From positions 2,625,501 through 2,689,500 of the forward strand of contig BQWY01000001.1 of NCBI GenBank assembly GCA_036984305.1: a stretch of DNA of 64,000 bases, written 5' to 3'. Origin of the DNA: Nitrospira sp. Lineage in GTDB: Bacteria > Nitrospirota > Nitrospiria > Nitrospirales > Nitrospiraceae. How positions within the stretch are numbered: the stretch's first letter is position 1; every line of letters starts with the position of its first letter. A model generated the notes under the pieces. That model saw nothing but the letters and a program-made list of their open reading frames with translations, did no database searches and had not been told where the DNA came from. Both the position numbers and the translations under genes were made by a program. Positions 2,873 through 54,741 of the stretch are shown piece after piece.

Positions 2873-2934
2873 GGGACGGAATACTAATGAGAGTGCATCA
2901 TACCGGGTTCGAAACCGGGCTCGCAAGCATTTTC

Positions 2935-2964: not shown

Positions 2965-2979
2965 ATCGATCCAGTTTTC

Positions 2980-3672: not shown

Positions 3673-3704
3673 CATGCGCCTGATCGGAACGAGGATCTAG
3701 AGAA

Positions 3705-4730: not shown

Positions 4731-4770
4731 CAATCAGGCTCTTCCTCCTGCTATCTTTCCACCACACGCT

Positions 4771-6816: not shown

Positions 6817-7685
6817 GCACGCGGCGGTGTCATTCCGTCTTGTGCACCCAAGTGGTCCGTGTGTGTGTGTGCGCGGGCCTGCTGTTCGTATGCCGATTGA
6901 GCGTTGCGCAACTTCCTCCGAATCCGGATCAGCCCCTCAATGAAAAACTGGCCACACACGTGACGATTCGTGTGGTCGGGCATGGCTCCCTGGCCTTGGG
7001 GCGTGAGGTCGGCGGCGCCAAGGTCACCATCACGGATCTCGAGACTGGGCAATTGCTCGCGACCGGATTACAGCAGGGTGAGGCGGGCGACCAAAACCTG
7101 ATCATGCGAACACCTCACGTCATGCGGGAGCCCGTCTACAGCTCCGCTCCCTCGGCTGCCTTCACGACCACGCTCTATTTGGACGCACCCACCCGCGTGG
7201 AAATTGCCGCTCAGGGCCCGATGGGATATCCGATTTCCGCACAGCGGGTCGCGCACACCACGTGGCTGATTCCGGGTCAGCACATGTCGGGCGACGGCGT
7301 CGTGCTGGAACTGTACGGGTATCTGGTTCGCATCGAGGCGCCGCCCGAAGGGGAGTCGCTCATTGCCAAGGAAGATGTGACGCTCCGAGCTTCGGTTCGG
7401 ACGCTCGCGGGGACACCCGTGCAACCCCACGGCGACTGGGACGCACGCAGTGTGTCGATTTTCGGAGAAGTCATGATCGGCGGTCGGGTTATCGAGCGGC
7501 TTCAGATGTTTTTTTCTGGAGAGCGGAGCGTGTTCGAAGCCCCTTTCTTCGTTCCCACCGCGCATGACGCCCCGGACGGGATCACGTTGCGCGTCGTCGC
7601 CGCCAATGCGGCTGACGGAAACGTCGGTGTCGCCGAGGCGAACTATCCGGTCCTGACGGAACGGCTTCGCCCGAACAATCGATAG
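6813..7685 (+). CDS. Exported protein of unknown function
   Basis: A 290-residue protein I do not recognise. The N-terminus has a basic stretch and a hydrophobic core (VCVCAGLLFVCRL) ending in SVAQ, so a secretory signal peptide cleaved near residue 32 is likely. The rest looks beta-rich: segments such as HVTIRVVGHGSLALGREV, KVTITDLETGQLLATG and VTLRASVRTLAGTPV suggest Ig-like or carboxypeptidase-regulatory-like folds, a guess from alternation pattern only. It overlaps metG by ATGA, so translation is probably coupled, and precedes ftsH by 61 bases. Confidence 0.7.
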   Translation: MSTRRCHSVLCTQVVRVCVCAGLLFVCRLSVAQLPPNPDQPLNEKLATHVTIRVVGHGSLALGREVGGAKVTITDLETGQLLATGLQQGEAGDQNLIMRTPHVMREPVYSSAPSAAFTTTLYLDAPTRVEIAAQGPMGYPISAQRVAHTTWLIPGQHMSGDGVVLELYGYLVRIEAPPEGESLIAKEDVTLRASVRTLAGTPVQPHGDWDARSVSIFGEVMIGGRVIERLQMFFSGERSVFEAPFFVPTAHDAPDGITLRVVAANAADGNVGVAEANYPVLTERLRPNNR

Positions 7686-7746
7686 CGCGTCCTTTCCCGG
7701 GACGAAACGACCGTACACGGTCCGTGTACAGCTGACAGGATTCTCC

Positions 7747-9576
7747 ATGGACCCAAAGGCCAGACAATTCTCGCTGTGGTACATCATCCTTGCATTTTGG
7801 ATGCTGCTCCTCTTCCAGACGTTCGTCACCCCGATCCTCGGACCGCAAGAAGTGCCTTACAGCGAGTTCAAGAAAGCCGTGGCCGAGGACAAGGTTCTCG
7901 AAGTGTCGATCTCCACCAACAAGATTCACGGCCGGGCGAAAGAATCGACCTTCGAGCGGGAGACGGATCTGTTCGATACGGTTCGGGTCGAGGACCCCGA
8001 TCTTCTTCGTGAGTTGGCCGAGCATCACGTGAAAGTCACCGGCGTGATCGAAAGCACCTTTCTGCGCGATCTCCTTTCGTGGGTCATTCCCGCATTCGTG
8101 TTCGTAGGGCTGTGGTGGGTGATCTTGCGCCGCCTTGGCCAGGGACAAGGCAGCTTCATGACCGTGGGGCGGAGCAAGGCCAAGATTTACATGGAACGTG
8201 AAGTCAAGGTCACGTTCGCGGACGTGGCAGGTGTCGATGAGGCCAAACAAGAATTGCAGGAGGTAATCGAGTTCTTGAAAACACCCGAGAAGTTTCAACG
8301 ACTCGGAGGAAAAATCCCGAAAGGCATTCTGCTCGTGGGGCCGCCCGGAACCGGAAAAACACTTTTGGCCAAAGCGGTCGCCGGGGAAGCGGCCGTGCCA
8401 TTTTTCTCCATCAGCGGGTCGGAGTTCGTCGAAATGTTCGTCGGGGTCGGGGCAGCCCGCGTTCGCGACTTGTTCCAGCAAGCTATCCAAAAGGCTCCGT
8501 GCATTATTTTCATCGACGAACTCGACGCACTCGGCAAAGCCCGCGGGATGGGACCGATGGTTCACGAGGAACGGGAGCAGACGTTGAATCAATTGCTGGT
8601 CGAAATGGACGGCTTCGATCCCCGTGCTGGCGTCATTCTCATGGCTGCCACCAACCGACCGGAGATTTTGGACCCCGCACTCCTGCGCGCAGGCCGGTTC
8701 GACCGGCACGTTCTGGTGGACCGCCCGGACAAACTCGGGCGCCTGGCTATTCTGAAGGTGCACGCACGGAAGATTCGTCTCAAGTCGACGGATGATCTCG
8801 ACATCATCGCCAGCATGACGCCGGGATTCGTGGGAGCCGATCTGGCCAATGTCGTCAACGAAGCCGCCTTGCTCGCCGCTCGCCGCGGCAAAGAAGTCGT
8901 GGAATTGTCGGAACTTCAAGAGGCGGTCGAGCGCGTCATCGCCGGTTTGGAAAAGAAGAACCGGGTCTTGAACAAGATGGAAAAGGAGCGAGTCGCTCAC
9001 CACGAGGTCGGCCATGCCCTGGTCGCGATGGCCATACCGGGCTCGGATGCCGTGCATAAGATCTCCATCATTCCGCGGGGCATCGCCGCCCTGGGCTATA
9101 CGCTTCAACTTCCAACTGAAGACCGATTTCTCATGACAAAGACCGAGCTGACGAACAAGATCGCCGTCTTGTTAGGAGGCCGAGGCGCAGAGGACCTCAT
9201 TTACCAAGAGGTGTCCACCGGTGCGCAAGACGACCTGCTGAAGGCCACCGACATTGCCAAGAGCATGATCAAGCGCTACGGGATGTCGGAGAAGCTTGGG
9301 CAGGTCAGCTTCGACCGTGAGCGGCAGCCTCTATTTCTGCAGGCTGCCCAATCCTCGCCCTCCGGCGACTACAGCGAAGCCACCTCGCGGGAAATCGATT
9401 GCGAGATCCGCAGGCTGATCGACGAACAGTACGCCCGCGTGCAGGCCTTGCTTCAACGGCAGGAGCCGGCGCTACGACGGGCGGCGACCGCGCTGCTCGC
9501 AAAGGAGACGATCTCCGGGGAAGAGCTCCGAGCCATCGTTGACGCCGCCGGGTCCGCCAAGGAGCTCCCGGCGTGA
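7747..9576 (+). CDS. ftsH: ATP-dependent zinc metalloprotease FtsH
   Basis: Membrane-anchored AAA+ protease that degrades misfolded membrane proteins and some regulators. Residues: membrane segment 1 at about 10-30, periplasmic domain, membrane segment 2 at 108-128, Walker A GPPGTGKT (198-205), Walker B IIFIDELD (253-260), second region of homology [20 protein letters not shown] (301-320), zinc site HEVGH (419-423) and the third ligand in GAQDD (Asp 496). At 609 residues it is slightly shorter than the E. coli enzyme. The end overlaps the next gene as GTGA. Confidence 0.96.
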
Positions 9577-36800: not shown

Positions 36801-38237
36801 TCAGCTTGCCCCATCTCCCGACAGTACGACTGGGACCGTCAAGAGCATAATCTGTACGTCCAGCCACAGCGACCATTCATCGATGTATTCCAAATCCATG
36901 GCCATCCATTGCTCAAATGGTATTCGGTTGCGTCCCCGCACAGCCCAAAGACAGGTCAATCCCGGTTTCATACTCAATCGCCGGCGCTGCCACCGTTCGT
37001 ACTTGTCGACTTCGTGTTGGAGCGGAGGCCTTGGCCCCACGATGGACATGTCCCCCTTGATGACGTTGATCAGCTGGGGAAACTCGTCCAGACTCAGATG
37101 TCTTAACCATCTGCCCACTCTCGTGATCCTCGGATCTTTGCGGGACTTGAAGACCGGTCCGCGCAGTTCATTGAGAGCGGCGACCTCGGATAGCCGTCGC
37201 TCGGCGTCCGCAACCATGGATCTGAACTTGTACATCACGAACCGCCTACCATTCAGCCCGCATCGCTCCTGACTGAAAAAGATCGGGCCCTCGGAATCCA
37301 TTTTGATCGCCAACGCAATACCGATCCAGAGGGGCAAACCAATCAAGACAGTCGTCCATCCGATCACTAGGTCCATTGCGCGCTTGGTACCGAGCGCGAC
37401 CCAATTCGTCGGCTTCGTGCTAAACGTCAACAGTGGGATCTGGTTGAGCTCGTCGAGGGATGCGCGGGCAATGAGATGTGGAAACATTCCGACTGCGATC
37501 CGTGCATTGACACCGAGTTCCTCACACATGAGGAAGACGTCTTCGAGGTTGTGGACCATCCGACCTGGCACGACGAAAATGACCTCGTCAACCACTCTGG
37601 AATTGCAGATTCGCTCCAAGTCATCGAGTGAGCCGAGCACGTCATGATCCCCGATCCGCAATTCATGCGATCCCACGCGATTCTCCGAAACCAGACCCAG
37701 AAGGCGGAATCCCCACTTATCGTTGGACGCCACCTGCCTGGCGAACTCCAGCGCCTTTTCATTTGTTCCTACCACAATGACGTTGCACCATTGAAATTCA
37801 CGGCGCCCCGAACGGCGCATCAGGGCGCGGATAACCAAGCGTCCGGTCATCAACGTGACCACCGTGAAGGCCGCAAACGTGACGAGAAAAATGCGGCTGA
37901 TATCCGGTACCTTCAGAAGATACGTCACCCCCATGAGCAGGAACAGTCCGATCCCGCTGACTTTGATGAGATCGATGGGTAGTCGCCTGAAGGTGTTGAG
38001 GCGGCGAGGCTGGTAGAGACCCGATGAAAAGAGAAGGCCGATCCATATCGGAATGATAAATCCATACATCCAGTCGTAGCGCATGGAGGACATCAGGGGA
38101 CTCGGTAACCACTCAGCTAGCAGTGTCGCTAGGGCAGTACCGCGGATCCAGTATGCGGCCTCAAACGCCACGATCAGCGCCACGATGTCGGTGAACATGC
38201 ACCGCCACAATAATTGACGCGAGCGTTCCCTAAGCAT
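36801..38237 (-). CDS. Polyprenyl glycosylphosphotransferase (initiating sugar transferase)
   Basis: Starts glycan assembly by placing a sugar-1-phosphate on undecaprenyl phosphate. The 478 residues hold about four N-terminal membrane segments, a Rossmann-like middle domain (VIVVGTNEKALEFARQV), a membrane helix (about 285-310) and the PF02397 catalytic domain with FSQERCGLNGRRFVMYKFRSM, LDEFPQLINVIKGDMSIVGPRPP and KPGLTCLW. This layout is that of WcaJ/WbaP-type enzymes; the sugar cannot be named. It overlaps the following GT2 gene by 8 bases. Confidence 0.92.
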   Translation of the reverse strand: MLRERSRQLLWRCMFTDIVALIVAFEAAYWIRGTALATLLAEWLPSPLMSSMRYDWMYGFIIPIWIGLLFSSGLYQPRRLNTFRRLPIDLIKVSGIGLFLLMGVTYLLKVPDISRIFLVTFAAFTVVTLMTGRLVIRALMRRSGRREFQWCNVIVVGTNEKALEFARQVASNDKWGFRLLGLVSENRVGSHELRIGDHDVLGSLDDLERICNSRVVDEVIFVVPGRMVHNLEDVFLMCEELGVNARIAVGMFPHLIARASLDELNQIPLLTFSTKPTNWVALGTKRAMDLVIGWTTVLIGLPLWIGIALAIKMDSEGPIFFSQERCGLNGRRFVMYKFRSMVADAERRLSEVAALNELRGPVFKSRKDPRITRVGRWLRHLSLDEFPQLINVIKGDMSIVGPRPPLQHEVDKYERWQRRRLSMKPGLTCLWAVRGRNRIPFEQWMAMDLEYIDEWSLWLDVQIMLLTVPVVLSGDGAS

Positions 38238-39317: not shown

Positions 39318-40067
39318 ATGCTGTTGCCAAGGTGGAGAGCGATTTGGCGCTATTTGAGATGGGCAGAAAGTCCATACAGATGGCGGATTAGCCCTGGCGG
39401 CTGCCCTAATTGCGGGCGTACGTTCTTCCTCTCTCTCAGAGAAGATGCATTCATGACTCGATGCCTGTCCTGCAGAGCCAATGTGACGAGCCTATCCATC
39501 ATCTCAGTCATCGAACAGCACATGCGCCAATATACCGTCACTCGTGCTTGGGAGATGTCGACCTACGGAGCAACGCTTAGGTACCTGAAGCAACACGTGC
39601 ATGCCGTCGTTACCAGTGAATACTATCCGGACCATAGTCCCGGGGCCATGGTTGGACATGTCTTAAATCAGGACGTTCAGCAATTGACATTCGACGACGC
39701 CAGTCTGGATTTGATCACGTCAAACCAAGTTTTCGAGCATGTCCCCGATGATGTTCAAGGATATGGAGAGTGCTATCGGGTGCTCCGAAGCAATGGAGCC
39801 CTTATTTTTACCGTGCCGCTGGCCGACGACCCGACGACGTTTCGACTAGCGGAAATTGTCAACGGCCGCATCATGTTCCATGCGGCGCCGGAGTACCATG
39901 ACAGCAGAATTACGGGTCCACACTCTGTGCTCGCCTTCTGGCGCCATAGCCGGATTGATATCTGCAACCGCGTGGCGCAGGTCGGATTTCGAACGCAACT
40001 CGTGGATGTCATCCTGTCATCCTCACAACGGGTCCCGGCGAAAGTGATTTATGCGATCAAACCATGA
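39318..40067 (+). CDS. Methyltransferase with N-terminal zinc ribbon
   Basis: A 249-residue protein on the plus strand, unlike most neighbours. An N-terminal Cys4 module (CPNCGRTFFLSL then RCLSCRANV) precedes a methyltransferase type 11-like core: HVLNQDVQQLTFDDASLDLITSNQVFEHVPDDVQGYGECYRVLRSNGALIFTVPL in segments. The glycine-rich SAM motif is weak. Such proteins are common in capsule and O-antigen loci; the acceptor is unknown. In the 236-base gap upstream a TATAAT-like box lies on the minus strand at 39271-39276, without a clear -35. Confidence 0.75.
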   Translation: MLLPRWRAIWRYLRWAESPYRWRISPGGCPNCGRTFFLSLREDAFMTRCLSCRANVTSLSIISVIEQHMRQYTVTRAWEMSTYGATLRYLKQHVHAVVTSEYYPDHSPGAMVGHVLNQDVQQLTFDDASLDLITSNQVFEHVPDDVQGYGECYRVLRSNGALIFTVPLADDPTTFRLAEIVNGRIMFHAAPEYHDSRITGPHSVLAFWRHSRIDICNRVAQVGFRTQLVDVILSSSQRVPAKVIYAIKP

Positions 40068-40147
40068 CGATGACCGCCGACACTCAAAGTGGGAAGGCGA
40101 TCAGCCCATTTTCTGGCCAATTGACTCGCTTAGGCGACCGATGTGAG

Positions 40148-40331
40148 TCAGCCTAAAGCCCTTTCCGTCGTTCTTCGTTGGACCTCGCGCCGCCACACTT
40201 CAATGTCCACTTGAGCCTGCGCGAGGTTCACAAACCAATGCTCGTTCAGTCACTCATTACGAACGGCCTGTTAAGGGACTTGACCCAGGCACCCCGGTTC
40301 GGGCTTGTCTGGTTCAATCAGGCACAGGTGG
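40148..40331 (-). pseudogene. IS3-type OrfB transposase C-terminal fragment (copy A)
   Basis: The minus-strand frame from 40331 gives LIEPDKPEPGCLGQVP, a stop, QAVRNE, a stop, then LNEHWFVNLAQAQVDIEVW and RREVQRRTTERALG. It aligns without gaps to the DDE-domain end of IS3-family OrfB (LIQPGKP...FRDECLNEHWF...IEAWRR...LG.LTP). Two in-frame stops and the lost 5' part make it a pseudogene. Confidence 0.8.
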
Positions 40332-40440
40332 TAGCCGGTTCGGAGAACCCATGCAGCCTACATAGATCCTTCATCGCTACCCTCGCCTCGGCCTCTCGCA
40401 AGAACCCGACAATCTGGACCTCTGAAAATCGCTTCTCTAT
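40330..40440 (-). pseudogene. IS3-type OrfA transposase fragment (copy A)
   Basis: In the minus-strand frame starting at 40440 (ATA where ATG is expected) the translation reads IEKRFSEVQIVGFLREAEAR, then VAMKDLCRLHGFSEPATT. This matches the helix-turn-helix start of IS3-family OrfA (KRFSEEQIIGFLREAE... KDLCRRHGFSE...). It breaks off where OrfB-like sequence begins. Confidence 0.8.
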
Positions 40441-40497
40441 ATCCAATCTCCTTCCTGTTTAGGGATTGGACTCTAAGCACCGTGCTACTCAATCCGG
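40381..40497. repeat. Direct repeat, left copy (partner at 41516-41652)
   Basis: Clearly alignable to 41516-41652 in the same orientation. The last 23 bases (40475-40497 and 41630-41652) are identical; the right copy has about 20 extra bases before its OrfA start. The repeat is the OrfA end of the IS remnants. Confidence 0.85.
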
Positions 40498-41432
40498 AGG
40501 CGACGTCGGCTTGACACCAAACGGCTTAAAGCCGATTTGGCTGCCCTTAGAAGAGGCTGACGTTTCGACGCGCAGCTATCATCCAATGCTGAATTTATAG
40601 GTTCTACAACCGCTTGATACGGCTTAACGGGATGGGGCATTAGTGGGGGAGTATGACAGGATTTCAGCTCTATAGGCTGCCCCTTAATGGCGATGAACGT
40701 GCGCCGATCCAACATGATCCGATAGTAGGGATTCTCACAGACATAGAGCGATGAAAATCCGAGATCACTGATGAGATTTCTGAGCGAGGTCTCGGTAAAG
40801 AAATAGGATGGCAACCGGTCCAGGCACGACCAGTTATTTTCGTTCACTTGCAGGTCAGAAGCATCCGGCGAATTTTCCCAAAACAAATCTCCTTGGTACT
40901 CTCCTAGCATTTCGTTTCCATAAAAGGCGAAATGTGTATCAATGACGCATAAATGTCGCGTCAAATCATATAAGAGGCGACAAAATTCTAGGATCGACGA
41001 TTTATCGACATGATACAAGAGGCCTAGGCAAAGCACGATATCAAAACTCCCGAGGTCGGAGGAATCCAGCTTACGAACATCAGCCTCTAATATCTGAAGA
41101 TTCGACAGCCTCAATAGATTTTTGACGAATCTAATGCGCTCGCAATTTTTAGAGCGCCCCTCAATGGCAACAACTTCCGCGCCATGCATTGCGAACTCGA
41201 TCGCGAACCCGCCCTCCAGCGAGCCGAGGTCTAATACTCGGATGCCATCTAATGGCTTGCTCGACAGATCTGCACACAACTGCAGTATGCGACGCAAATA
41301 AAGAATCTGATTGGGATTTGCCTCGCTTCCCATTGTATTAACCCCATCCGCTAAACATATCGAATGGGCAGTCCACGGCCCATTTTTCTTAATATATGCA
41401 TTCAATACATTTTGCGCCTCATTTGGACTCAT
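40485..41432 (-). CDS. SAM-dependent methyltransferase, between two IS remnants
   Basis: A 315-residue protein. A class I methyltransferase core shows IRVLDLGSLEGGFAIEFAMHGAEVVAIEG (motif I and strand 2) and SFDIVLCLGLLYHVDKSS; the C-terminal third is unassigned. ATG at 41432 is preferred to a GTG three codons earlier. The gene is visibly richer in A/T than its neighbours. Its last three residues (R-I-E) and TAG stop lie inside the IS repeat, so the original C-terminus was probably cut by the insertion. Likely imported; glycan modification is inferred from position only. Confidence 0.78.
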   Translation of the reverse strand: MSPNEAQNVLNAYIKKNGPWTAHSICLADGVNTMGSEANPNQILYLRRILQLCADLSSKPLDGIRVLDLGSLEGGFAIEFAMHGAEVVAIEGRSKNCERIRFVKNLLRLSNLQILEADVRKLDSSDLGSFDIVLCLGLLYHVDKSSILEFCRLLYDLTRHLCVIDTHFAFYGNEMLGEYQGDLFWENSPDASDLQVNENNWSCLDRLPSYFFTETSLRNLISDLGFSSLYVCENPYYRIMLDRRTFIAIKGQPIELKSCHTPPLMPHPVKPYQAVVEPINSALDDSCASKRQPLLRAAKSALSRLVSSRRRLRIE

Positions 41433-41506
41433 CTTGATCACCCAATATCAGTTAGGTGCCCCACAATCCGCACCCCTAACGGGCCGCTTGGGGTCCGAGA
41501 TCTCCA

Positions 41507-41664: not shown

Positions 41665-42981
41665 TCATTGACTACGAACCTCACCGCGCATGACCGATTC
41701 GAAGACGTCGGCCCGAGCTTCCCAGTCCTGCTCCCGTGCCCACGCTCGTCTACGTTCAATCGCCACATAATCTCGGGCTGTCTGTCGCGCTTCGCATAAC
41801 TGCGCTGCAAACTCCTGTGCGTCGCTGGCCACCCGCACCTGCTCCGGGAGCAAGAGCAATTCCGGAAGTCGCGTGGCGACCACGGGCTTCCCGGCCGCTA
41901 GATATTCGTAGACTTTCACGGGATTAGTCGCCATCGTCAGTAGTGTCAGCTTGAAAGGGATCATGCACACATCAAACTTGCTCAAGTACTCGGGCACACG
42001 GTAATAGTCGACCTCCCCGACGAATTCAATATTCCGTAAGCCGAACGCTTGCTGAACGTCGCATCCGACGGTTGAGCCAACTAGCACGAAACGCCAGGTC
42101 GGAAGCAGTTGTGCGACTAGCATGATCAGCTGAATATCGAACCATCGAGAAATGGCTCCCACGTATCCCGCCACTGATTCGTGGCCATTGGGCGCTTCCA
42201 AAGTTTGGCTGAATAGACGAAATTCACAGCCGTTACGGATCAAGGTATTTGGACGAATACTCCCGACTCGGTCGTGCAAATAGGCCGAACTCGTCACCAC
42301 CTCATCCGCCGTAAGAATAAGGCTCTGTTCGGTTTGAGACATGGAGGGATCACTCGTCTCATGAAAGGCGCGGTGATCGTCCATACAATCGTAGATAATA
42401 CGTGTCTTTCCCAACGACTGGACTAGCGGAGTCCAGTAAGGATGATGAAGGATAGAGATCGTCGACTGCAGACCCACATCCCGCATCAATGCCTGCAACG
42501 AATCGCGGTAGGCATCTCGTACGCGCTCGTCCATGGCATGTCGATACATATCATCGATCTTGTCCTGGACAGCCCTCAACTGACAGACAAACACGCTCGG
42601 AGCCACTCGTCGGATGATTCGATACGAGCGCTCATCACCGGCCAGCATCGGAACGGTCGAGAAGTAGAACACGCGATAGCCGCGCTCGGCCATTGCCAGA
42701 CTCAAATGCTGCGGGCGCTGGTGGCGATAGCTCCAGTCAATAACCGGAAAAACCAAAACATCTGCTTTTGATGTCATGGCGCAGGCTTCGGTCACGAACT
42801 GATCCGACTGCGCCTGACTTGTCCCCGCGCCGTAGAGATCTTGGTACCAGTCGAAAATGTGGCCCAGGCTGTTCCGATCATGCCACAGCATGGACAACGC
42901 CTTCTTGACACGATGAGGCTGTGCCAACTTGATCGTCAGGCTTGGATTCTGCAGCGCCAAACGCAAGAGCTTACCGAACAT
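41665..42981 (-). CDS. Family 1/4-type glycosyltransferase
   Basis: A 438-residue GT-B enzyme. The N-terminal half includes DVLVFPVIDWSYRHQRPQHLSLAMAERGYRVFYFSTV, a start typical of glycosyltransferases in glycan loci of this kind. The C-terminal half has VGYVGAISRWFDIQLIMLVAQLLPTWRFVLVGS and MATNPVKVYEYLAAGKPVVAT, the nucleotide-sugar binding region. The middle GT4 domain of the 998-residue protein at 44120 is similar in these motifs, so the two may share ancestry. Its donor sugar is unknown. Confidence 0.85.
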   Translation of the reverse strand: MFGKLLRLALQNPSLTIKLAQPHRVKKALSMLWHDRNSLGHIFDWYQDLYGAGTSQAQSDQFVTEACAMTSKADVLVFPVIDWSYRHQRPQHLSLAMAERGYRVFYFSTVPMLAGDERSYRIIRRVAPSVFVCQLRAVQDKIDDMYRHAMDERVRDAYRDSLQALMRDVGLQSTISILHHPYWTPLVQSLGKTRIIYDCMDDHRAFHETSDPSMSQTEQSLILTADEVVTSSAYLHDRVGSIRPNTLIRNGCEFRLFSQTLEAPNGHESVAGYVGAISRWFDIQLIMLVAQLLPTWRFVLVGSTVGCDVQQAFGLRNIEFVGEVDYYRVPEYLSKFDVCMIPFKLTLLTMATNPVKVYEYLAAGKPVVATRLPELLLLPEQVRVASDAQEFAAQLCEARQTARDYVAIERRRAWAREQDWEARADVFESVMRGEVRSQ

Positions 42982-42989
42982 CGAGCCTC

Positions 42990-44111
42990 CTATGGCTCCT
43001 CACGAGCAGTCAACTCCTTCATCAAGATCTCGGCAATCCGTGGGGCCGCATGCCCGTCCCCATATGGAGAGACCCCGCGTGACATGGACCGATAGGCCTG
43101 CTCGTTGTCCAACAACTGCAACGACTCGCGTACGATCGCGGCGAAGTCAGGTCCCACCAATTTGACCACCCCTTGCTCCACGGCCTCAGGCCGCTCGGTT
43201 TCTCGTCGCAGCACCAGAACCGGCTTACCCAAGGCAGGTGCCTCTTCCTGTACACCGCCGGAATCGGAAAGAATAAAATGGGCTGTTTTCATCGCTGCCA
43301 CGAATGGCACGTAGTCCAGTGGTTCACAGAGACGAATTCGAGGATGGTTCGCGAGCAGCGTGGTCGCAACATTCGAAATATTGGGATTGGGGTGAACAGG
43401 ATAGAGAAACTCCACATCGTCGCGCGTATCTGCCAAATACCTGATGGCTCGACAAATTGCCGCAAACGGCTCCCCAAAGTTTTCCCGCCTGTGGGCCGTC
43501 ACCAGGACGAGACGTGCCCCTGATCGTACGGCCGGAGCCTGGTCATTACACCGCTTGGCAACGTCGAGAAGGGCGTCGATGACGGTATTCCCCGTGACAA
43601 AAATTTTTCCGGCGCCGATTCCCTCTGCAAGGAGATTACGTCTTGCCGTATCGGTCGGCGCAAAATGCCAGTGAGCCAACCGACCCGCCACGACCCGGTT
43701 CATTTCCTCCGGAAAAGGATAGGACAGGTCGCCGGTACGCAACCCCGCTTCCACGTGGCCGAATGGAATTCGCTGATAGAAGGATACGAGCGCGGTGACC
43801 ATCGCCGTCGTGGTATCCCCCTGTGCCAGGACAGCGGCAGGCTGCTCGTCTGTCAGGACGCCGTCCATAGCCGTGATCAGTCGAGCAGTCAAGTCCGGCA
43901 ACCGCTGGTTGTCCCGCATCACGTTTAGATCAATATCTGGCTGAATCTGAAACATCTCGAGCACCTGATCGAGCATCGAGCGATGCTGCGCGGTCGCCAG
44001 AATCCTCACGGAGAACTCCGTATGGCGCTGGAGTGCGAGGATGACCGGAGCCATCTTAATGGCCTCCGGCCGCGTTCCGACGACACACAGGATCTTGTTG
44101 GTTCGATGCAT
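42990..44111 (-). CDS. wecB: UDP-N-acetylglucosamine 2-epimerase (non-hydrolysing)
   Basis: Converts UDP-GlcNAc to UDP-ManNAc for O-antigen or enterobacterial-common-antigen-like glycans. The 373 residues begin KILCVVGTRPEAIKMAPVILAL and include VQGDTTT-like LAQGDTTTAMVTAL, VEAGLRTGDLSYPFPEEMNRVV, LVTAHRRENFG and SDSGGVQEEAPALGKPVLVLRRETERPE, all strict family marks. ATG at 44111 chosen; the longer frame reaches into the next gene. No wecC-like dehydrogenase was seen. Confidence 0.94.
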   Translation of the reverse strand: MHRTNKILCVVGTRPEAIKMAPVILALQRHTEFSVRILATAQHRSMLDQVLEMFQIQPDIDLNVMRDNQRLPDLTARLITAMDGVLTDEQPAAVLAQGDTTTAMVTALVSFYQRIPFGHVEAGLRTGDLSYPFPEEMNRVVAGRLAHWHFAPTDTARRNLLAEGIGAGKIFVTGNTVIDALLDVAKRCNDQAPAVRSGARLVLVTAHRRENFGEPFAAICRAIRYLADTRDDVEFLYPVHPNPNISNVATTLLANHPRIRLCEPLDYVPFVAAMKTAHFILSDSGGVQEEAPALGKPVLVLRRETERPEAVEQGVVKLVGPDFAAIVRESLQLLDNEQAYRSMSRGVSPYGDGHAAPRIAEILMKELTAREEP

Positions 44112-44119
44112 GGTGGTCA

Positions 44120-47116
44120 CTATCTGGGCCTGAGTGCGGGTCGGAGTAGAAAACACTGATGTCGCCACTGCGTTCCTGCGGCATACGCCATGTCCTCTAC
44201 CTCGAAACCGGCCTCCGCGACCAACTTCTCTACTTCAGGGCGCGTGTACTGCCACACATGATCGTCGATGTACGACGACGGTTGACCTGTAAAGGTTGGC
44301 ATCGCATCGAGCGACGAATAATAGGTAGTGACCCGGCCCCATTCGGCGGCGTCCGGAGTCGTGAGTACAACCCGCCCTTTAGAGGAGACCAATTGACGCA
44401 ATTTTTGCAACGTTGCGCGAGGATGAAAATTTAAGTGCTCCAAAATCTCAGTGAACAAGATCAGGTCGAATTGACCGAACTCTTCAACGCTCGACAGCTC
44501 TATGTTACCGTGGACCTGATGGATGCCGTATCGCTCGACGAGCGTGGGCGCCAGATAGGAGCCCGCGTCCACAGCCAATATATAACTGGGACGATGACAG
44601 TGTATCGAGAAAATTAGGAGAGTCCCGTAGCCTGGACCGATATCCACGACGCGATCTACCGAGGTGAGGCCCCGCACCCACCGCAAAGCCGGGAACCAAT
44701 AACTTGCTTCCTCATGCCTATAGGTCTGCGCGTAGTGTCCGGGGCGACCAGAGACCTGATCACAGGCGGCAATTTCATCCTGGACTTGCGCCAGCGGAAC
44801 ACCCTTCATCGGTTTGCTGAGATTGTCCCGAATCATTTCGGCCACGACGCCAGCCTTGGATTGCCAGGTGTTGTCGGTGGCGTCCTGATGGAGCCGTGCA
44901 CGGTACCTGCTATCGTCTCGCAATGCGAGCGCTTCGTCGATTCGGACGATGAAGTGCTGGGGATCCCTGCCGATCAAGACCGATTGATACTTCCGACATT
45001 CTGGGAGATCGGTCGTCACAATGGGGTGGCCCAGAGCCATGTATTCGAACAGCTTGATGGGTGAAGTCGACTCCGTGACTTCATTGATTCGAAATGGGAT
45101 GGTGGAGACATCGAACCAACAGGCAAACTGAGGCAATCGCTTGTAGTCGATCGGACCCAGCACGGTGATGTTCGGACAATTCTCCAGCTTGTACGAACCG
45201 AGGGATTGATCATAGTTCCATCCGATCAATACAAGTTCGTAGTCCGGGCGGGCATGTGCCAGTTCAAGGATGAGCTCGTAATCAAACCACTTTGCAAGAG
45301 CCCCAAAATATCCGACAATGGGCTTGCCTTTGGACACCACATCACGGAGCTCCATCGGAACCCGCGTAGAATCGCGATGTATGGCAAAATGTTCAAGCTC
45401 AACCCCGTTCGTTATGAGCCGAACATTCTTGGCTCGATGACGGGACGCATCCCGATAAAGCTTATCGGCGCTCGTGATACAAATCACATCGTCGCATTCA
45501 AGAGCGTTTCGATGCCGCTCCAGTAACTCTTGAGGGACCTCTCGACCGGAAATGTCCGAATGGATTTCGTCGATGTATTCGTACAGCACCACGTCTCCGT
45601 CACCCAAATGTCCGCGAAGATACTCCCAGGTGCACTTGGGATCGGCCGCATATACATGAATCACCTTGCGTCGCGGCAATCGGTCTAGCAACTCAAACTG
45701 ATTCGTCACATAACAGCCGTCCGTTACCTCATCGAAGCCCTCTACGGAATCAAAGTTGTTCACGGTACAAAAAAAATAGAGGAAACCGAGCTCTGCCAAG
45801 CACTTCGCCACATGCTGTGGGCGCTGGAACAAGGGGAGCTTCCAATCCAGTAGCGGTCGAAACACGATAATTGGCTTGCCTTGATGTTGCGCAAGAATCC
45901 TGGTGAGTTGCTGCCTGTGGCGTTGTGCCGGCCGACGTGGTCGTAGTTTACTCCACGTCAACTTCAGGACATACGCGAGTCCTCGCGTTTCAAGAAGCAT
46001 GCGGGCATGCCGGCTTTTGCGCGTGTATAGGGCCGTTAGACGTTTCACTTCTCTGAGCGGCCTCGTGACACGCCAGGATCGACTTGCTTCCATCCAGGTA
46101 ATTCGAGCTTGTGCCTCGGCCAGTTGTTCCTGTACCTCACCCAATCGCGCGCTCAAGAGTTGCTGGGCTTCGCGCGTCTGGCTGAGCTCATAATAGAGGT
46201 CGCGCACCCGCCACGTGTCCGACTCTGTCATGCGGATCCGTCGCAACACCTCGAGGAGCCCCGGCAGTCTCGCTCGCATCATGCCGGCCAATGCATTGTC
46301 CTGCACGCGACCGGCCTGATCGCAGGCCCGTTCAAGCCATGCTGCATAAGCGATCGCGACATCCGAGAGCATCCATTCAGTCCCGTGCTTGGCGGTGAAG
46401 TACGTCCGATTTCGATCCACCAATTGACGATACGTCTCCGAATCGAGGTGCTTGAAACTTTGCGATCCCTTATGGAAGACAAAGCAATCCTCCACAACGA
46501 CCAGCTTGTACCCCGCCGCCAAGGCTCGCAGGCAGTAGTCGTCATCCTCGAAAAATCCAAGACCAAACGTTTCATCAAGCATTCCAAGCCGCTCGGTAAC
46601 AGTCCTCGGCGTCGCCAGACAAAAGAAACCCAGACGCTGCGTGTCGTGCCATAGGCCTCGTACGCTTGAGATATACTTCCCCGCAATGCCTGGATAATTG
46701 GTTTCATTCAAGCCTGGAAGATCAATTCGCTGCTCATTGCCTACAGCATTCGTGACCGGCCCCACCATTCCGATAGACGGATCGGCCTCGAGCGGCCCAA
46801 GAAGCCGGTTCAGCCATCCTTCACTCATAAGGGTATCGTTATTCAGGAACACCACGTACTTGCCTGACGCGAGCTTGAGACCGTCGTTACATCCGCCAGC
46901 GAATCCTCTGTTGGCGGAGTTGAGTTGGATCTTCACGTTTCGATGGCGAACTTGTAGTTCGGTCAAATATTTTGGTGTTGCATCGGTGGACGCATTGTCC
47001 ACGACAATCAACTCGAACGATTCTGCTGGAGTCAGGCTGAACAGGCTTTCCAGGCAGGGCGCGGTCGCCTCCTCGAGTTGATTGTGCGTAACAATGATGA
47101 TGCTGGTTTCAACCAT
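44120..47116 (-). CDS. Three-domain glycan protein: GT2 - coiled coil - GT4 - methyltransferase
   Basis: A 998-residue fusion. Residues about 1-250: GT2 domain (TSIIIVTHNQLEEATAPCLESL, VDNASTDATPKYL, NRGFAGGCNDGLKLASGKYVVFLNND, EDDDYCLRALAAGY). About 300-350: heptad-rich coiled coil. About 415-775: GT4-like domain (IIVFRPLLDWKLPLFQRPQHVAKCL, IVGYFGALAKWFDYELILEL, TSPIKLFEYMALGHPIVTTD). About 795-998: methyltransferase (VVDIGPGYGTLLIF, FDLILFTEILEHLNFHPR). It may add two sugars and cap or modify the chain. Every domain looks intact. It lies 8 bases upstream of wecB. Confidence 0.88.
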   Translation of the reverse strand: MVETSIIIVTHNQLEEATAPCLESLFSLTPAESFELIVVDNASTDATPKYLTELQVRHRNVKIQLNSANRGFAGGCNDGLKLASGKYVVFLNNDTLMSEGWLNRLLGPLEADPSIGMVGPVTNAVGNEQRIDLPGLNETNYPGIAGKYISSVRGLWHDTQRLGFFCLATPRTVTERLGMLDETFGLGFFEDDDYCLRALAAGYKLVVVEDCFVFHKGSQSFKHLDSETYRQLVDRNRTYFTAKHGTEWMLSDVAIAYAAWLERACDQAGRVQDNALAGMMRARLPGLLEVLRRIRMTESDTWRVRDLYYELSQTREAQQLLSARLGEVQEQLAEAQARITWMEASRSWRVTRPLREVKRLTALYTRKSRHARMLLETRGLAYVLKLTWSKLRPRRPAQRHRQQLTRILAQHQGKPIIVFRPLLDWKLPLFQRPQHVAKCLAELGFLYFFCTVNNFDSVEGFDEVTDGCYVTNQFELLDRLPRRKVIHVYAADPKCTWEYLRGHLGDGDVVLYEYIDEIHSDISGREVPQELLERHRNALECDDVICITSADKLYRDASRHRAKNVRLITNGVELEHFAIHRDSTRVPMELRDVVSKGKPIVGYFGALAKWFDYELILELAHARPDYELVLIGWNYDQSLGSYKLENCPNITVLGPIDYKRLPQFACWFDVSTIPFRINEVTESTSPIKLFEYMALGHPIVTTDLPECRKYQSVLIGRDPQHFIVRIDEALALRDDSRYRARLHQDATDNTWQSKAGVVAEMIRDNLSKPMKGVPLAQVQDEIAACDQVSGRPGHYAQTYRHEEASYWFPALRWVRGLTSVDRVVDIGPGYGTLLIFSIHCHRPSYILAVDAGSYLAPTLVERYGIHQVHGNIELSSVEEFGQFDLILFTEILEHLNFHPRATLQKLRQLVSSKGRVVLTTPDAAEWGRVTTYYSSLDAMPTFTGQPSSYIDDHVWQYTRPEVEKLVAEAGFEVEDMAYAAGTQWRHQCFLLRPALRPR

Positions 47117-47152: not shown

Positions 47153-48742
47153 CTAAATGTATGGCCATCTCAGGTTGGCATACCGCTCGCGAAGTTTTTG
47201 CCCCAGCCACCGACGATCTTCATCCGCAAAGGGAGCCCGAGCGATGCGACCTAGACGTACCAGCCAACGGCGCATGCGAGAATGAACGTGCGGATGCCCC
47301 TCTAACTTCGACATCTTCTCCTCAAGTACGCCGATGAGCCGGTTTCGCTCCGCAAGCACTCCTGACAGTTCGGCTAGTTCCTTTTCTCGTTGTCCCGCAA
47401 GTTGACGATAAAATTGTGTCTCGATATGCGTGGACAGCCTGATATTGGCTTGCTCCCGTGAATGCTGCCGATATTCCAACAAAGGATACGGCGAGCGTAC
47501 GGCATCCCAACCGGCCTGAACCATGCGAACGAATAAAGAGTGGTCTTCCGCCCGCGATTTTTCCTGCTTGTAGCCCCCCACTTGGTCGAAGGCCTGTCGC
47601 CGGAACATGCTGGAACCATGAATAAAATTGGCTTTCCCGAGCTCGCCTCTCGCCTCCGGTGAAAAATCAGGAAACGACACCACAAAAAAATGGTCTTTGA
47701 TTATTCGGCCCTGTCGCTCCCGTGGGTTCTGATCATAGATGAGTCGCGCTCGGGACCCGAACAGCGCGTAGTCCGTGTATGCAACCGCAGCATGTGGGTG
47801 GAGGCTGAGCAAAGCCGACAGTCGCTCGACGTAATCGCTCCGTAGACGATTGTCGGCCCCCAAGATGCACACGAATTGTGCGGCTGTCCTCTGGACAGCC
47901 TGATTGAACGTCTCAATGATCCCCAGGTTGCTGGCGTTCCGATGAAAAAATATTGTACCTCGGGACTTGTCAGCGAAGTATCTTCCTATCTCGCTGGTAT
48001 TGTCCTCAGAACAATCGTCGACGATGTGCACTTCGTCGGGCTTTCTTGTCTGTCTCAACACCGATTCGACCGCCTCGGGGAGATACTGCCCATAGTTGTA
48101 TGAAACGACGATAACGGCCACGCGACTCGCAGGTTCTAACGCCGTGTCGTTGGACACGATGAGCCGGTTCAACGTGTATCGATCACTGTCATTGCCCTGA
48201 ACGCATGATAGGCCTCCTGTAAAGCGTGTGCGAACCTCCTCCACGACCACATTATTGTAGTCACCGTGAGGGTACGCGAACCAACGGAAGCCGGATGGAT
48301 CCAAGGAGCGCAACGAGGGAGGCACCTCCAACTCATCCACAATCCTGTCACGGTCCGTGACCGGGCCTAAATTGAGGTGCGTTCGAGAATGCCACTGCAA
48401 TCGTCCACCCATGCTAACCAGCGTGGCCAATTGGGCTTCATCTGCAAATGTCGCCAGCGGCTCGACACGATCAAACGCGTTGTCGCGGCCGACATAGTCG
48501 CTGGTTACAAATAGTTCGAAAGGGTACGACAGCATACGCAGTAGCGGAGCCGCGTATTGCAGGACATTCTCGTAGACCCCGTCGAACGTAATGACCACCT
48601 GCTTCTCGTCTGACGGATCATAGTCGTCGAGGTAGACGACCTTGCGTCCTTGCAATGCCAACAATTGCCGGTGGAAGGTCTCAACGTCGACCCACCAGCA
48701 TGTTTTATTCTGCGGATGAACCTTGTGGTACAACAGAATCAT
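47153..48742 (-). CDS. Polysaccharide deacetylase-like / GT2 fusion protein
   Basis: A 529-residue protein. Residues 1-200 resemble a CE4 deacetylase (ILLYHKVHPQN, VVITFDGVYENVLQYAAPLL, LQWHSRTHLNLGPV, FRWFAYPHGDYN), but the metal motif TFDDG reads TFDGV, so one of the two Asp is lost. Residues about 210-430 are a GT2 domain (VAVIVVSYNYGQYLPEAVESVL, VDDCSEDNTSEI, NLGIIETFNQAVQ, GADNRLRSDYVE). A C-terminal coiled coil and basic tail follow. It overlaps the methyltransferase gene as ATGA. Confidence 0.85.
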   Translation of the reverse strand: MILLYHKVHPQNKTCWWVDVETFHRQLLALQGRKVVYLDDYDPSDEKQVVITFDGVYENVLQYAAPLLRMLSYPFELFVTSDYVGRDNAFDRVEPLATFADEAQLATLVSMGGRLQWHSRTHLNLGPVTDRDRIVDELEVPPSLRSLDPSGFRWFAYPHGDYNNVVVEEVRTRFTGGLSCVQGNDSDRYTLNRLIVSNDTALEPASRVAVIVVSYNYGQYLPEAVESVLRQTRKPDEVHIVDDCSEDNTSEIGRYFADKSRGTIFFHRNASNLGIIETFNQAVQRTAAQFVCILGADNRLRSDYVERLSALLSLHPHAAVAYTDYALFGSRARLIYDQNPRERQGRIIKDHFFVVSFPDFSPEARGELGKANFIHGSSMFRRQAFDQVGGYKQEKSRAEDHSLFVRMVQAGWDAVRSPYPLLEYRQHSREQANIRLSTHIETQFYRQLAGQREKELAELSGVLAERNRLIGVLEEKMSKLEGHPHVHSRMRRWLVRLGRIARAPFADEDRRWLGQKLRERYANLRWPYI

Positions 48743-49287
48743 TTCCCATAGACCTCAAGGCGATGGACGTATTCACGGTAGGGATAAAAACATTCTTTCA
48801 ACATGAGATAAGGGAATCTGGCTCGATACCACGTGTCAATATGAATGCTGACGAGAATACCGTCGTCCGCCAGTAAATCGTCCACGATCCGATAAATCAT
48901 GGGGAGCGATCTTCCGATGTACTGGTCATACAACACACCCGTGATGATCACCAGATCAAACGGCACCCCTGGCAGGGTGGCCGCGTCGAATAGAGAGCAT
49001 TGCATGAACTTGAGTCGGTGACTTTCATGCTGTCGGGCTCGATCGACGGCCGACCTGGAAACATCAATGCCCACTACCTCCTCTCCAGGTAGTTTCCTAG
49101 TCACAAAGCCTTCCCCACACCCAATGTCGAGAACACGACGATACCGACCGCTAGGCAGTTCGCTCAACAGCATCTCCACGCGCTTGTGGTCGTCAGGGTT
49201 TGACTCGTATCCCCACGGATCAGCCTGATGATACCAATGTTCAAGGTCCTCGAAACTCTGCATGTCTTGATTTTCTGCACCTTCCAT
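48739..49287 (-). CDS. Class I SAM-dependent methyltransferase (NodS-like)
   Basis: A 182-residue compact methyltransferase: FEDLEHWYHQADPWGYESNPDDHKRVEMLL, RRVLDIGCGEGFVTRKL (motif I), VVGIDVSRSAVDRAR, FDLVIITGVLYDQY. The DPWGYES start resembles NodS-type enzymes and similar proteins of sugar-modifying loci. It lies between the Wzt-like ABC ATPase (6-base gap) and the deacetylase fusion (ATGA overlap). Confidence 0.85.
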   Translation of the reverse strand: MEGAENQDMQSFEDLEHWYHQADPWGYESNPDDHKRVEMLLSELPSGRYRRVLDIGCGEGFVTRKLPGEEVVGIDVSRSAVDRARQHESHRLKFMQCSLFDAATLPGVPFDLVIITGVLYDQYIGRSLPMIYRIVDDLLADDGILVSIHIDTWYRARFPYLMLKECFYPYREYVHRLEVYGK

Positions 49288-49293
49288 CGTTGA

Positions 49294-50616
49294 TTAGGAT
49301 GAGATCACGGAACCGTTCACGACGCAATCGACCTTGAACGGAGGATTATACATCGCCCACCGAGACGTTCCCGCCGTGCTGGCGGATTGGAACAGCAGGG
49401 CGGGCTCGATGTAGTCCAAGTAGTCGGTATTGGTCGGGCTCACATAACTGCTGGCTATGGACGTGATGCCATACTTCCCGTCGCGCAGGCGATTTTGAAA
49501 TTCAAACGTGGCTTGCACCGTGTCGCCCTGACTCAATTTCTGAAAATCCACGTGCTCGGCATGCGTGCTGGTCCCCAGGAGGAGCTGACCAGACTCATCG
49601 ATGACGTACATCGACAGGCAAAGATACTCCACCATTCGCTTGATACGAACGAACATTTTCACACGAACACTTTCTCCAAAGAACACCGTGTTCCCCCCCT
49701 GGGTCGTAGAGAGAGTTACAAACGTAATCTCCGCGTGACCACTGCCCGTGCGATGACCGGTAAATGCAGCCAAGAATGCAGCCTCCTCGGCTGCTGTCGG
49801 AGAGCCCTGCCCCTGTTCGTCCGTTGCGATACCAACACCGTGGAACAAACCCGCCGCTTCACCTGGCGGCTGCTTAAGATCGGATTGTGCTGAGCTGATG
49901 TAATGACTGCAGACGCGACTCGGCTCGCCGAACAGGGCCACCTGGCCCTTATCCAAATAAAGCACCCGGTCACAGAGTTTCTGCACCAAACCGATGTCAT
50001 GACTCACAAAAAGTATCGATGCTCCTTCCGCACGCAACTGTTCGATTCTCTTGAGGCATTTGAGAGTAAACACAAAGTCTCCCACTGAAAGTGCTTCATC
50101 GACAACGAGAATATCAGGCAGAGCATGGACTTGGACGGCAAATGCCAGGCGCATATACATGCCGCTCGAATAGGTTTTCACCGGCTGATCGATAAATTGC
50201 CCTATGTCGGCAAACGACAAAATATTGTTGAGCCGGGCGTCTACGTCCCGCCGACTCAGCCCTAACACCGCCCCATTCAGATAGACGTTCTCGCGACCTG
50301 TAAATTCTGGATTGAATCCTGCCCCGAGTTCCAACAACGCGGCCACGCGTCCCTGCACGTCCACACTTCCGTAGCTCGGGGTCAGCGTACCGCAGATCAA
50401 CTGAAGCAGGGTCGACTTGCCCGACCCATTGCGGCCGATCACCCCGACGGTCTCCCCTCGCTGAACATCGAAGGACACGTCTCGTAACGCCCAGAATTCC
50501 CGATAGAACTGCTTTCTCCCACGCCACAAACCTTGCTTGAGCCGATCCTGCGGTTTGTCGTAGATGTGATAGCACTTGCTGATATCCGTGGCACGAATTG
50601 CATAGTTAGAGGACAT
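49294..50616 (-). CDS. O-antigen/polysaccharide ABC exporter ATPase (Wzt-like)
   Basis: A 440-residue ATPase with Walker A GRNGSGKST (about 60-68), signature YSSGMYMRLAFA, Walker B ILVVDEALSVGD and H-loop FVSHD. Beyond residue 280 a C-terminal domain (ITFVTLSTTQGGNTVFFGESVRVKMFVRIK, then DGKYGITSIASSYVSP) matches the Wzt carbohydrate-binding tail that recognises the finished chain end before export. ATG at 50616; it overlaps the permease gene by 11 bases. Confidence 0.92.
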   Translation of the reverse strand: MSSNYAIRATDISKCYHIYDKPQDRLKQGLWRGRKQFYREFWALRDVSFDVQRGETVGVIGRNGSGKSTLLQLICGTLTPSYGSVDVQGRVAALLELGAGFNPEFTGRENVYLNGAVLGLSRRDVDARLNNILSFADIGQFIDQPVKTYSSGMYMRLAFAVQVHALPDILVVDEALSVGDFVFTLKCLKRIEQLRAEGASILFVSHDIGLVQKLCDRVLYLDKGQVALFGEPSRVCSHYISSAQSDLKQPPGEAAGLFHGVGIATDEQGQGSPTAAEEAAFLAAFTGHRTGSGHAEITFVTLSTTQGGNTVFFGESVRVKMFVRIKRMVEYLCLSMYVIDESGQLLLGTSTHAEHVDFQKLSQGDTVQATFEFQNRLRDGKYGITSIASSYVSPTNTDYLDYIEPALLFQSASTAGTSRWAMYNPPFKVDCVVNGSVISS

Positions 50617-51454
50617 CAGCAAATCCCTTTCGGGTGCGTTGAAACCAGATCAGGCCCAACCATGCCACCAGGCAGCTGACGGCATAATACACCGCCAGAC
50701 CAATCCAATCCGGCTTGCCTCCCCAAAATACAAGGTTTCGTGCTTGCTCGATGATGAACGTCAACGGATTGGCATAGAGCCAGGCTCGATACGGCTCTGG
50801 CAACGCCGAGGCCGGATAAAACACGGGACTCAAGAACAGCATGATGGTGGTCAGCATCGCCATCATGTGACCAATGTCGCGAATATAGACGCCAAGGGAC
50901 GCCAGTATCCACGAGACCCCGATCGTCAAGAGTGAGAGGGGGAAAAACAGGACTGGAAGCAGCAGGATAGCTGGAGGGATCGAGAGATTAGCCACGAAAT
51001 AGAACAGCATGAGCACTAGAACGTTCATCGAGGCGTGAAACAGCGCGGAGCCCAAAGCGATCCACGGTAGAACCTCAAGTGGAAACAGCACCTTCTTGAC
51101 GTAATTCACATTCGAAAGAATGAGCCCTGGGGCGCGGTTGACACATTCTGCAAACAACCCGTGCACGATCATCCCCGTGAACAGGGTCATCGCAAAATCC
51201 GCCTTGCTATCTTCGAGCCCGCCTCCCCAACGGGCTTTAAAGACCACAGAGAAGACGATCGTATACACCAGTAGCATCAAGATCGGATTGAAAAAGGACC
51301 AGGCCAGACCAACGAGCGACCCTCGATATCGCCCAATGACATCGCGTTTGACCATCTGCCAAATCAGTTCCCGATGCGCCCAAAAGCTAAAGAAAATCGC
51401 CAACGGAGAATTGGTCAGGATTCTTCGATGGGGAGTGAGTTTCTGGCTGATCAT
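50606..51454 (-). CDS. ABC-2 type polysaccharide exporter permease (Wzm-like)
   Basis: A 282-residue integral membrane protein with about six segments: FFSFWAHRELIWQMVKRDVIGRYRGSLVGLAWSFFNPILMLLVYTIVF at the start, KVLFPLEVLPW, and SPVFYPASALPEPYRAWLYANPLTFIIEQARN, which is the family signature near the C-terminus. With the overlapping Wzt-like ATPase it forms the exporter that moves undecaprenyl-linked polysaccharide to the periplasm. Confidence 0.92.
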   Translation of the reverse strand: MISQKLTPHRRILTNSPLAIFFSFWAHRELIWQMVKRDVIGRYRGSLVGLAWSFFNPILMLLVYTIVFSVVFKARWGGGLEDSKADFAMTLFTGMIVHGLFAECVNRAPGLILSNVNYVKKVLFPLEVLPWIALGSALFHASMNVLVLMLFYFVANLSIPPAILLLPVLFFPLSLLTIGVSWILASLGVYIRDIGHMMAMLTTIMLFLSPVFYPASALPEPYRAWLYANPLTFIIEQARNLVFWGGKPDWIGLAVYYAVSCLVAWLGLIWFQRTRKGFADVL

Positions 51455-53424: not shown

Positions 53425-54741
53425 TTATGCGGAGGCAATCGATCCCTCAGAGCGGTGGCGGCTATTGGTGGACGCCGGCAGAATTTCAGTCGCGGGACGC
53501 ACGGCCCCGGAGCAACGGCCTTCATGCCACCCTGACATGTGAAGTCCCAGTGCGACCATGATCCAAAATAGGTTAGCCAGCGCGCCGATCAGCATGTAGT
53601 CGAACAAATTCCGTGTCGCAACTCCAATGACCATTAGGGCCACACCGAACGGTATCATGCGGTGAGCGATTTCTGTCGGCAGTTGGTCCTGTCGGATCGG
53701 CTGCGTGAGGACTAAGTAGATTTTTGCGATCAGCCAGAGAAAACAGGCCAGCGCTGGCAGGCCGCTGCCCAGGCCCACCACGATAAACGTACTATGCGGG
53801 CCGTACGCTTTCTCCAATTCTGGATGTCCGCTATAGCGCTTGACGAAGTTGTAGTTTCCGTAACCCACCCCGACCAAAGGATGTTCGAACAGATCCGTGG
53901 CCGCCAATTTCCAGACATTCAGTCTGGCCTTGAACGTCCAGGGATCCGCCACCGCAGAGGTCCCGGCTTGCTCGTTCACTGTCACGGTAAGCGCCACCCC
54001 CGCCACAGTCGACGCCAAAATGACCAGCACGATCAACAGGAGCCACCGGCGGCCCGCTAGCCAGAGTCCGACACAAGCTTCAGCCACGAGCCCGATCCAG
54101 CCTGCGCGGGTATACGCAGCGACCTCGGCCACGAGGGCCAACCCCGTCGTGGTGACACCACAGACTTTGAGCCATCCGGCGCGGAATCGCATCGTGGCCG
54201 TGAGGGTCAACGGAAGGGCCATGACCATATACGTGCTGAGCCAGTTGTAATCGGATCCGATGGCCCCAGCGCGCAGGTCTCGACTCCAAGGATCCGGACG
54301 CTGCAACACTCCAATGATGGCATATCCTGCCGTTACTGCAGTCCCGGCGAGCACAGCCACGAGTACGTCGTGTGAACTCCGACGTTCGGTGTCGGCCTTG
54401 AGCACGGCCATACTCCAGTAAAACACCAGTACCTGCGCCGAAAGCTTGCGCCACTCGCGGAAGCTGTAGGCTGGGTCGATGGAGAATGGAATGGTGAACA
54501 AAATCCAGCCGACAAACAGCAACAGCGGAACGTCGAGGGGAGTCCGCACCCAAACGGATTGCCCCTGCCGCCACAGCGTGATGATGGCCAGTATCAGCAA
54601 GGAGAAAAACAGATACCGAGTAGGGCCATGGGCGGGCGGGAAGAAGTTCAGAAACGCGAGTGCGGGCAAACCCAATCGTTGGATCGTCCACACCTTGTCC
54701 AGCAAGGGCGGACGAGCGGACATCGAAACGCTGTCTGTCAT
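53425..54741 (-). CDS. O-antigen ligase/polymerase family membrane protein (WaaL/Wzy-like)
   Basis: A 438-residue protein with about ten or more membrane segments and, between them, the periplasmic loop with HPLVGVGYGNYNFVKRYSGHPELEKAYGPHSTFIVVGLGSG, which carries the conserved Arg/His residues typical of the Wzy_C domain. Since export here uses an ABC transporter, a ligase role (WaaL) is more likely than a polymerase, but sequence alone cannot decide. It begins 1 base after the rfbD stop. The 268-base gap to the DegT gene holds nothing I recognise. Confidence 0.85.
   Translation of the reverse strand: MTDSVSMSARPPLLDKVWTIQRLGLPALAFLNFFPPAHGPTRYLFFSLLILAIITLWRQGQSVWVRTPLDVPLLLFVGWILFTIPFSIDPAYSFREWRKLSAQVLVFYWSMAVLKADTERRSSHDVLVAVLAGTAVTAGYAIIGVLQRPDPWSRDLRAGAIGSDYNWLSTYMVMALPLTLTATMRFRAGWLKVCGVTTTGLALVAEVAAYTRAGWIGLVAEACVGLWLAGRRWLLLIVLVILASTVAGVALTVTVNEQAGTSAVADPWTFKARLNVWKLAATDLFEHPLVGVGYGNYNFVKRYSGHPELEKAYGPHSTFIVVGLGSGLPALACFLWLIAKIYLVLTQPIRQDQLPTEIAHRMIPFGVALMVIGVATRNLFDYMLIGALANLFWIMVALGLHMSGWHEGRCSGAVRPATEILPASTNSRHRSEGSIASA

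Follow-up and report, generated by a model that had tools for sequence, protein, structure and literature searches.

Does the methyltransferase (MT) at the C-terminus of a large glycosyltransferase (GT) fusion in Nitrospira sp. end a sugar chain, or does it take part in building one? In the characterised ABC-dependent systems, polymerising modules lie near the membrane, an extended coiled coil (CC) carries the terminator at its far end, and Wzt recognises the terminal group through its carbohydrate-binding tail (PMC11231755). The fusion is encoded in a 64-kb stretch of DNA that was analysed as a whole in this work (hereafter the window). The initial annotation proposed that its coil could act as a ruler or docking arm and its MT as a chain terminator, in the manner of the WbdA/WbdD pair of Escherichia coli O9a.

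The gene (44120..47116, minus strand) starts with ATG and encodes 998 aa without an internal stop, in the order GT2, helical/heptad segment, TuaH-like GT4, and class-I SAM MT. Pfam matched Glycos_transf_2 (PF00535; residues 5-130, 4.7e-26), Glyco_trans_1_4 (PF13692; residues 599-729, 1.7e-9), and Methyltransf_23 (PF13489; residues 817-974, 1.3e-13), and no GT99, kinase, or CBM domain was found in the protein by Pfam. We delimited a GT2 module (residues 1-245; 46382..47116), a coiled-coil segment (residues about 298-345; 46082..46225), the motif SRSWRVTRPLR with basic helices (residues 345-395; 45932..46084), a GT4 module (residues 396-767; 44816..45931), and an MT module (residues 775-998; 44123..44794), all on the minus strand. 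The motif is common to the homologous loci L093, L106, and others, and this region may associate with the membrane. An AlphaFold2 model of the full chain, built from 26 sequences, has a GT-A fold at residues 1-245 and a GT-B fold at about 396-767, with ten-residue blocks mostly above pLDDT 90. The two folds are connected by helices 298-343 and 346-378, which have low to medium confidence (blocks about 50-79). A MAFFT alignment with misplaced MT fragments was left out of the folding input. The MT was modelled poorly in the full chain, where it had one homologous row, and reached a pTM of 0.82 when folded alone. With the MT-alone model, all 1000 aligned chains in a PDB fold search had Z >8, and the best 50 of these 1000 were overwhelmingly SAM methyltransferases. 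For the full chain, the matches listed were all generic GT-A and GT-B folds. These results agree with the initial annotation in that three catalytic domains and a coiled coil are present in one chain.

The same annotation had described the catalytic domains as apparently intact, which by their motifs holds for two of them. Both the GT2 motifs (LNNDT and FEDDDYC) and the MT motifs (DIGPGYGTL, TEILEHLNFHP, and DDHVWQY) are present and largely conserved among homologues. The EX7E motif of the GT4 (ESTSPIKLFE) lacks its first Glu. Since this residue is likewise missing in 15/15 aligned members of the subfamily, its absence does not indicate decay. Catalysis by the GT4 is nevertheless a prediction from sequence, and the missing Glu counts against the main reading given below. 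The GT4 module matches NF047676, the family of TuaH from Bacillus teichuronic acid synthesis, with 78.7 bits where the cut-off is 550, and is therefore not a TuaH equivalog.

The gene lies in an operon in which all genes are on the minus strand: Wzm, the ABC-2 exporter permease (50606..51454, PF01061); Wzt, with an ABC ATPase and a Wzt_C carbohydrate-binding tail (49294..50622; PF00005 and PF14524, 2.6e-20); a 182-aa MT (48739..49287, Methyltransf_31); a polysaccharide deacetylase-GT2 fusion (47153..48742, PF01522 and PF00535); the target protein; WecB, a UDP-GlcNAc 2-epimerase (42990..44168; TIGR00236, 456.9 bits, over the cut-off); and a second TuaH-like GT4 (41665..42981; Pfam, with NF047676 below the cut-off). 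Between Wzm and the GT4 that follows WecB, all intergenic gaps fall within -17 to 36 bp. The apparent overlap of 49 bp between the target gene and wecB disappears if WecB starts at Met20 (44111), its probable start, 8 bp past the target stop codon. At the operon edge, positions 40060-40480 (minus strand) hold broken reading frames (RFSEVQIVGFLREAEARVAMKDLCRLHGFS; NEHWFVNLAQAQVDIEVWRREVQRRTTERALG), which resemble remnants of an IS3-type transposase.

Elsewhere in the locus, we found genes for a 318-aa MT (40485..41441, minus strand, Pfam), an initiating polyprenyl-phosphate sugar transferase (36801..38237, minus strand; PF02397, and TIGR03025 over the cut-off), an O-antigen-ligase-like membrane protein (Wzy_C; 53425..54741, minus strand, PF04932), a PseC-like aminotransferase, and further GTs and MTs. 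Genes of the dTDP-rhamnose and GDP-mannose pathways (RmlA-, RmlB-, RmlD-, GMD-, and ManC-like) are also present. The Wzt-like ATPase with a substrate-binding tail that had been noted earlier is confirmed. No Wzx was found at this locus: PF01943, the flippase model searched, has no match in the window, and its nearest match lies 331 kb away. The genome has seven Wzt_C matches, six of them over the cut-off. Some 25 kb ahead of the window, two Wzt_C proteins lie near each other (G000:C1:2598649-2600397). Also encoded in this genome is a protein of 1540 aa (L065, 5264-9883) that combines Methyltransf_24 with two GT2 domains and TPR repeats.

Heptad scoring, for which we used a home-made score and not COILS, found a single segment in the target (residues 303-348), which scores 14.8, while shuffled sequences reach a maximum of 10.8 ± 1.0. 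With about 46 residues, the coil would span roughly 7 nm if fully helical, an estimate that combines this home-made score with a low-confidence helix, and it is about one-third of the coil of WbdD, which measures about 200 Å (PMC5082667). Of the locus proteins scanned with this score, none but the target has a convincing coiled coil. The score also flagged the 318-aa MT, the tail of which is basic and unconvincing as a coil. The C-terminal part of the deacetylase-GT2 fusion looks helical by eye and has a low heptad score.

A scheme in which the GT2 polymerises across the coil, the coil sets a minimum length, and the C-terminal MT halts elongation by capping the non-reducing end, leaving the mark for the Wzt_C tail, has several points in its favour. 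The operon encodes such a tail, known terminators are coiled-coil proteins (PMC11231755) and the target is the sole convincing one of the proteins scanned here, and WsaE is thought to cap through an MT fused to two GTs (PMC2943079). The position of the MT argues against this scheme. In the model, the MT adjoins the GT4 through a short linker rather than standing at the opposite end of the coil, where only the GT2 lies, and the coil is short. The ruler and methyl-cap roles proposed by the initial annotation are therefore not supported by position. Furthermore, a cap could come from any of four other MT genes of the locus. We consider capping by the fused MT possible but rather unlikely.

The target shares with single-chain polymerase-terminators at least two GT modules with a coil, and ABC export with a Wzt tail. 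As a terminator, however, its MT would not be separated by the coil from the polymerising GTs, unlike in the scheme of WbbB and Klebsiella pneumoniae O7 ORF6. WbbB (Raoultella terrigena/K. pneumoniae O12) is similarly a single chain with a coiled coil and more than one GT module, has a GT ahead of the coil at its N-terminus, and works with ABC export and a carbohydrate-binding Wzt tail, but it terminates through a GT99 Kdo transferase, a domain that Pfam did not detect in the target, and no MT is described for it. O7 ORF6, encoded next to wzm/wzt, is also one chain with an MT, two GT modules, and a coiled coil; its order is MT-kinase-CBM-coil-GT2-GT2, with the MT distal, whereas the target is GT2-coil-GT4-MT with neither kinase nor CBM by Pfam. 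WsaE of Geobacillus stearothermophilus likewise has one MT and two GTs per chain and an ABC exporter locus, but its MT is N-terminal rather than C-terminal, and the part of its description considered here mentions no coiled coil (PMC2943079). The WbdA/WbdD system resembles the target in having a polymerase, a methylating enzyme, a coiled coil, and a carbohydrate-binding Wzt tail. It differs in being two proteins, with the MT and kinase of WbdD at the distal tip of the coil; in the target, the MT is beside the GT4 and Pfam detected no kinase domain. Combining polymerising and capping activities, which had been put forward as a departure from WbdA/WbdD, is already known from WbbB and O7 ORF6 (PMC11231755); WsaE is a further case, in which the cap is inferred (PMC2943079).

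Homologues carry parts of this domain order. The four-part order was found in none of 60 relatives, none of 395 genomes of the phylum (C-terminal queries), and none of 277 genomes of the class of L093; the class of L090 was represented by one genome, its own. Scanning genome contigs with the 624-aa C-terminal part of the target returned nothing, and the GT4 module had to be searched as an alignment instead. Many of the compared loci come from metagenome-assembled genomes (MAGs), in which binning errors are possible. Directly after Wzm-Wzt, the Desulfuromonadales MAG locus L093 encodes an MT-CC-GT4-MT protein (5765-8848), which differs from the target in having an N-terminal MT in place of the GT2. 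Its coil-GT4-MT part is 40% identical to the target and the GT4-MT junction is collinear, so the fusion is not an assembly artefact; a sequencing error is ruled out by the same conserved junction. In locus L185, from the same class, the order is Wzm, Wzt with Wzt_C, a GT99 ... GT4 protein, a GT2-CC-GT4 protein, and WecB; an additional gene separates Wzm from Wzt. This GT2-CC-GT4 protein lacks the MT and is 41-42% identical to the target, and the two loci have in common the order Wzm-Wzt-x-(GT2-CC-GT4)-WecB. The neighbouring gene in L185 (5173-8187) encodes 1005 aa with an N-terminal GT99 domain (PF21912, 4e-52), a GT4 C-terminus, and a joint that looks by eye like a long coil; it is a putative WbbB-like terminator with a different polymerase part. 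The Bacillota MAG locus L090 has a GT2-CC-GT4 protein with a weak heptad score. The gene beside it (2534-5725) encodes a 1064-aa GT2 ... GT4 protein with a duplicated-domain look by eye (ISGWALTGIERVEIYL / ISGWVVSDYGIDRVEIYL).

The nearest homologues thus either lack the MT or, as in L093, carry the same MT together with another one at the distal, WbdD-like position, which speaks further against a cap made by the C-terminal MT. Both MT kinds also occur in one locus in L103, where an MT of the target's kind lies near an MT-CC-GT4 gene; in L151, an MT of this kind directly precedes a GT4-family gene. A profile of the target MT did not have WbdD among the best 60 of 90 PDB matches, whereas the distal-MT profile does match WbdD (4azw, 3.6e-6), at low rank among many generic MTs; the class-I MT fold itself is common to the target MT and WbdD. 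Taken together, the MT on the GT4 side, the short coil, the distal MT in L093, and this profile contrast favour a methylating component of a polymerase. We therefore read the target, with a probability of roughly 60%, as a membrane-associated single-chain assembly enzyme of a Wzm/Wzt-exported polysaccharide, in which the GT2 and GT4 build the chain and the MT O-methylates that same chain. This reading draws on the domains, motifs, operon, exporter with a carbohydrate-binding tail, and recurrent GT2-CC-GT4 and GT4-MT arrangements in homologous loci found by computation. The GT2 and the TuaH-like GT4 would both add sugars to one polyprenyl-linked chain at the cytoplasmic face of the membrane; the coil and basic helices would oligomerise the protein and dock it at the membrane; and the MT would O-methylate one of the sugars of this chain, in the simplest case the residue added by the neighbouring GT4. 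We infer the donor sugars and the methylation target. In-chain or side-sugar methylation ahead of a terminal cap is slightly favoured. As a point against this reading, trees and synteny gave no link between the fused MT and polymerisation as opposed to later decoration.

The fused MT could also be a bystander, a general sugar O-methyltransferase joined to a GT2-GT4 pair that makes an adaptor or side branch instead of the repeat. The GT2-CC-GT4 homologues in L171 and L090 have no MT, and other GTs of the locus (38230, 41665, 59314, 60402, and 61232) could polymerise. This seems unlikely to us, given that the GT4-MT junction is conserved between lineages of two phyla. As for the GT2, it is up to 51% identical to standalone GT2s in the class of L093, and in the GT2 tree the target falls outside a clade that unites standalone GT2s with the two remaining fused ones. 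The GT2-CC-GT4 proteins do not form a single clade in either the GT2 or the GT4 tree, both of which are small and sampled by one-query similarity, and they need not share a function.

The GT4 of the target belongs to a widespread family that often adjoins Wzm/Wzt: Wzt was found in 46/82 and WecB in 38/82 of the loci. In 77 GT4-family loci, the extension ahead of the GT4 had either fewer than 160 or more than 390 residues, and the long extensions hold MT, pyruvyltransferase, GT2, GT4, or unrecognised modules. On a quick 103-row GT4 tree with phmmer-based labels, parsimony required 17 changes of the N-terminal label. Polysaccharide pyruvyltransferases are fused to this GT4 family in L116 (5486-8119, with a coil-like spacer), L136 (2-2830), L057 (3386-9151), and L059 (14626-17151), and pyruvylation is a possible chain-end mark in these chains. 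This range of modules invites another view, that the GT4 is a membrane-proximal polymerase or adaptor enzyme and the MT a decoration, since GT4-family and related chains carry GT99, MT, pyruvyltransferase, or GT2 before the coil, and two of these types, GT99 and MT, are known to terminate. Yet GT2s close to that of the target are commonly single proteins or parts of large multi-domain chains, and in L185 the GT2-CC-GT4 protein lies beside the GT99 ... GT4 protein, so the GT2 there is probably not a terminator. We hold this view to be improbable.

The N-terminal module correlated with the Wzt tail when the best GT4 protein was counted (9/14 against 10/33, p 0.05) or any GT4-family protein (11/16 against 8/31, p 0.011), and less so in the first counting version (p 0.12). 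With three ways of counting, all uncorrected for kinship, this is a hint only. The exceptions are mostly Clostridium loci; the single Clostridium tail checked (L097) has no Wzt_C match. Nor does the Wzt tail of L057, so tail length is not equal to a Wzt_C domain. It is a speculative and rather doubtful extension that this family, from several bacterial phyla and archaeal MAGs, is a general cassette of an exchangeable distal module (MT, pyruvyltransferase, or GT2, with GT99 in a related chain), a coiled coil, and a TuaH-like GT4, often beside Wzm/Wzt. The distal module would determine the chain end that the Wzt tail recognises, and the target would be a version with its MT at the membrane-proximal end, in which the GT4 and MT finish the chain without a long ruler.

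In GT2-coil-GT4-MT, a known type of sugar-chain-building machine has a new order of domains. We did not find this order in the openly licensed papers covered, which is weak evidence of novelty; no paper joining TuaH to Wzt was found there, and we found no description of module exchange ahead of one GT4 family. This exchange seems to be a more general point than the target itself. The polymerase-terminator scheme was built on a few enterobacterial and Geobacillus enzymes, and an MT that lies with the GT4 on one side of a short coil puts to the test the rule placing terminators at the far end of the coil. The homologues provide natural swaps of MT, pyruvyltransferase, and GT2 before one GT4 family with which the chain-end question can be addressed.
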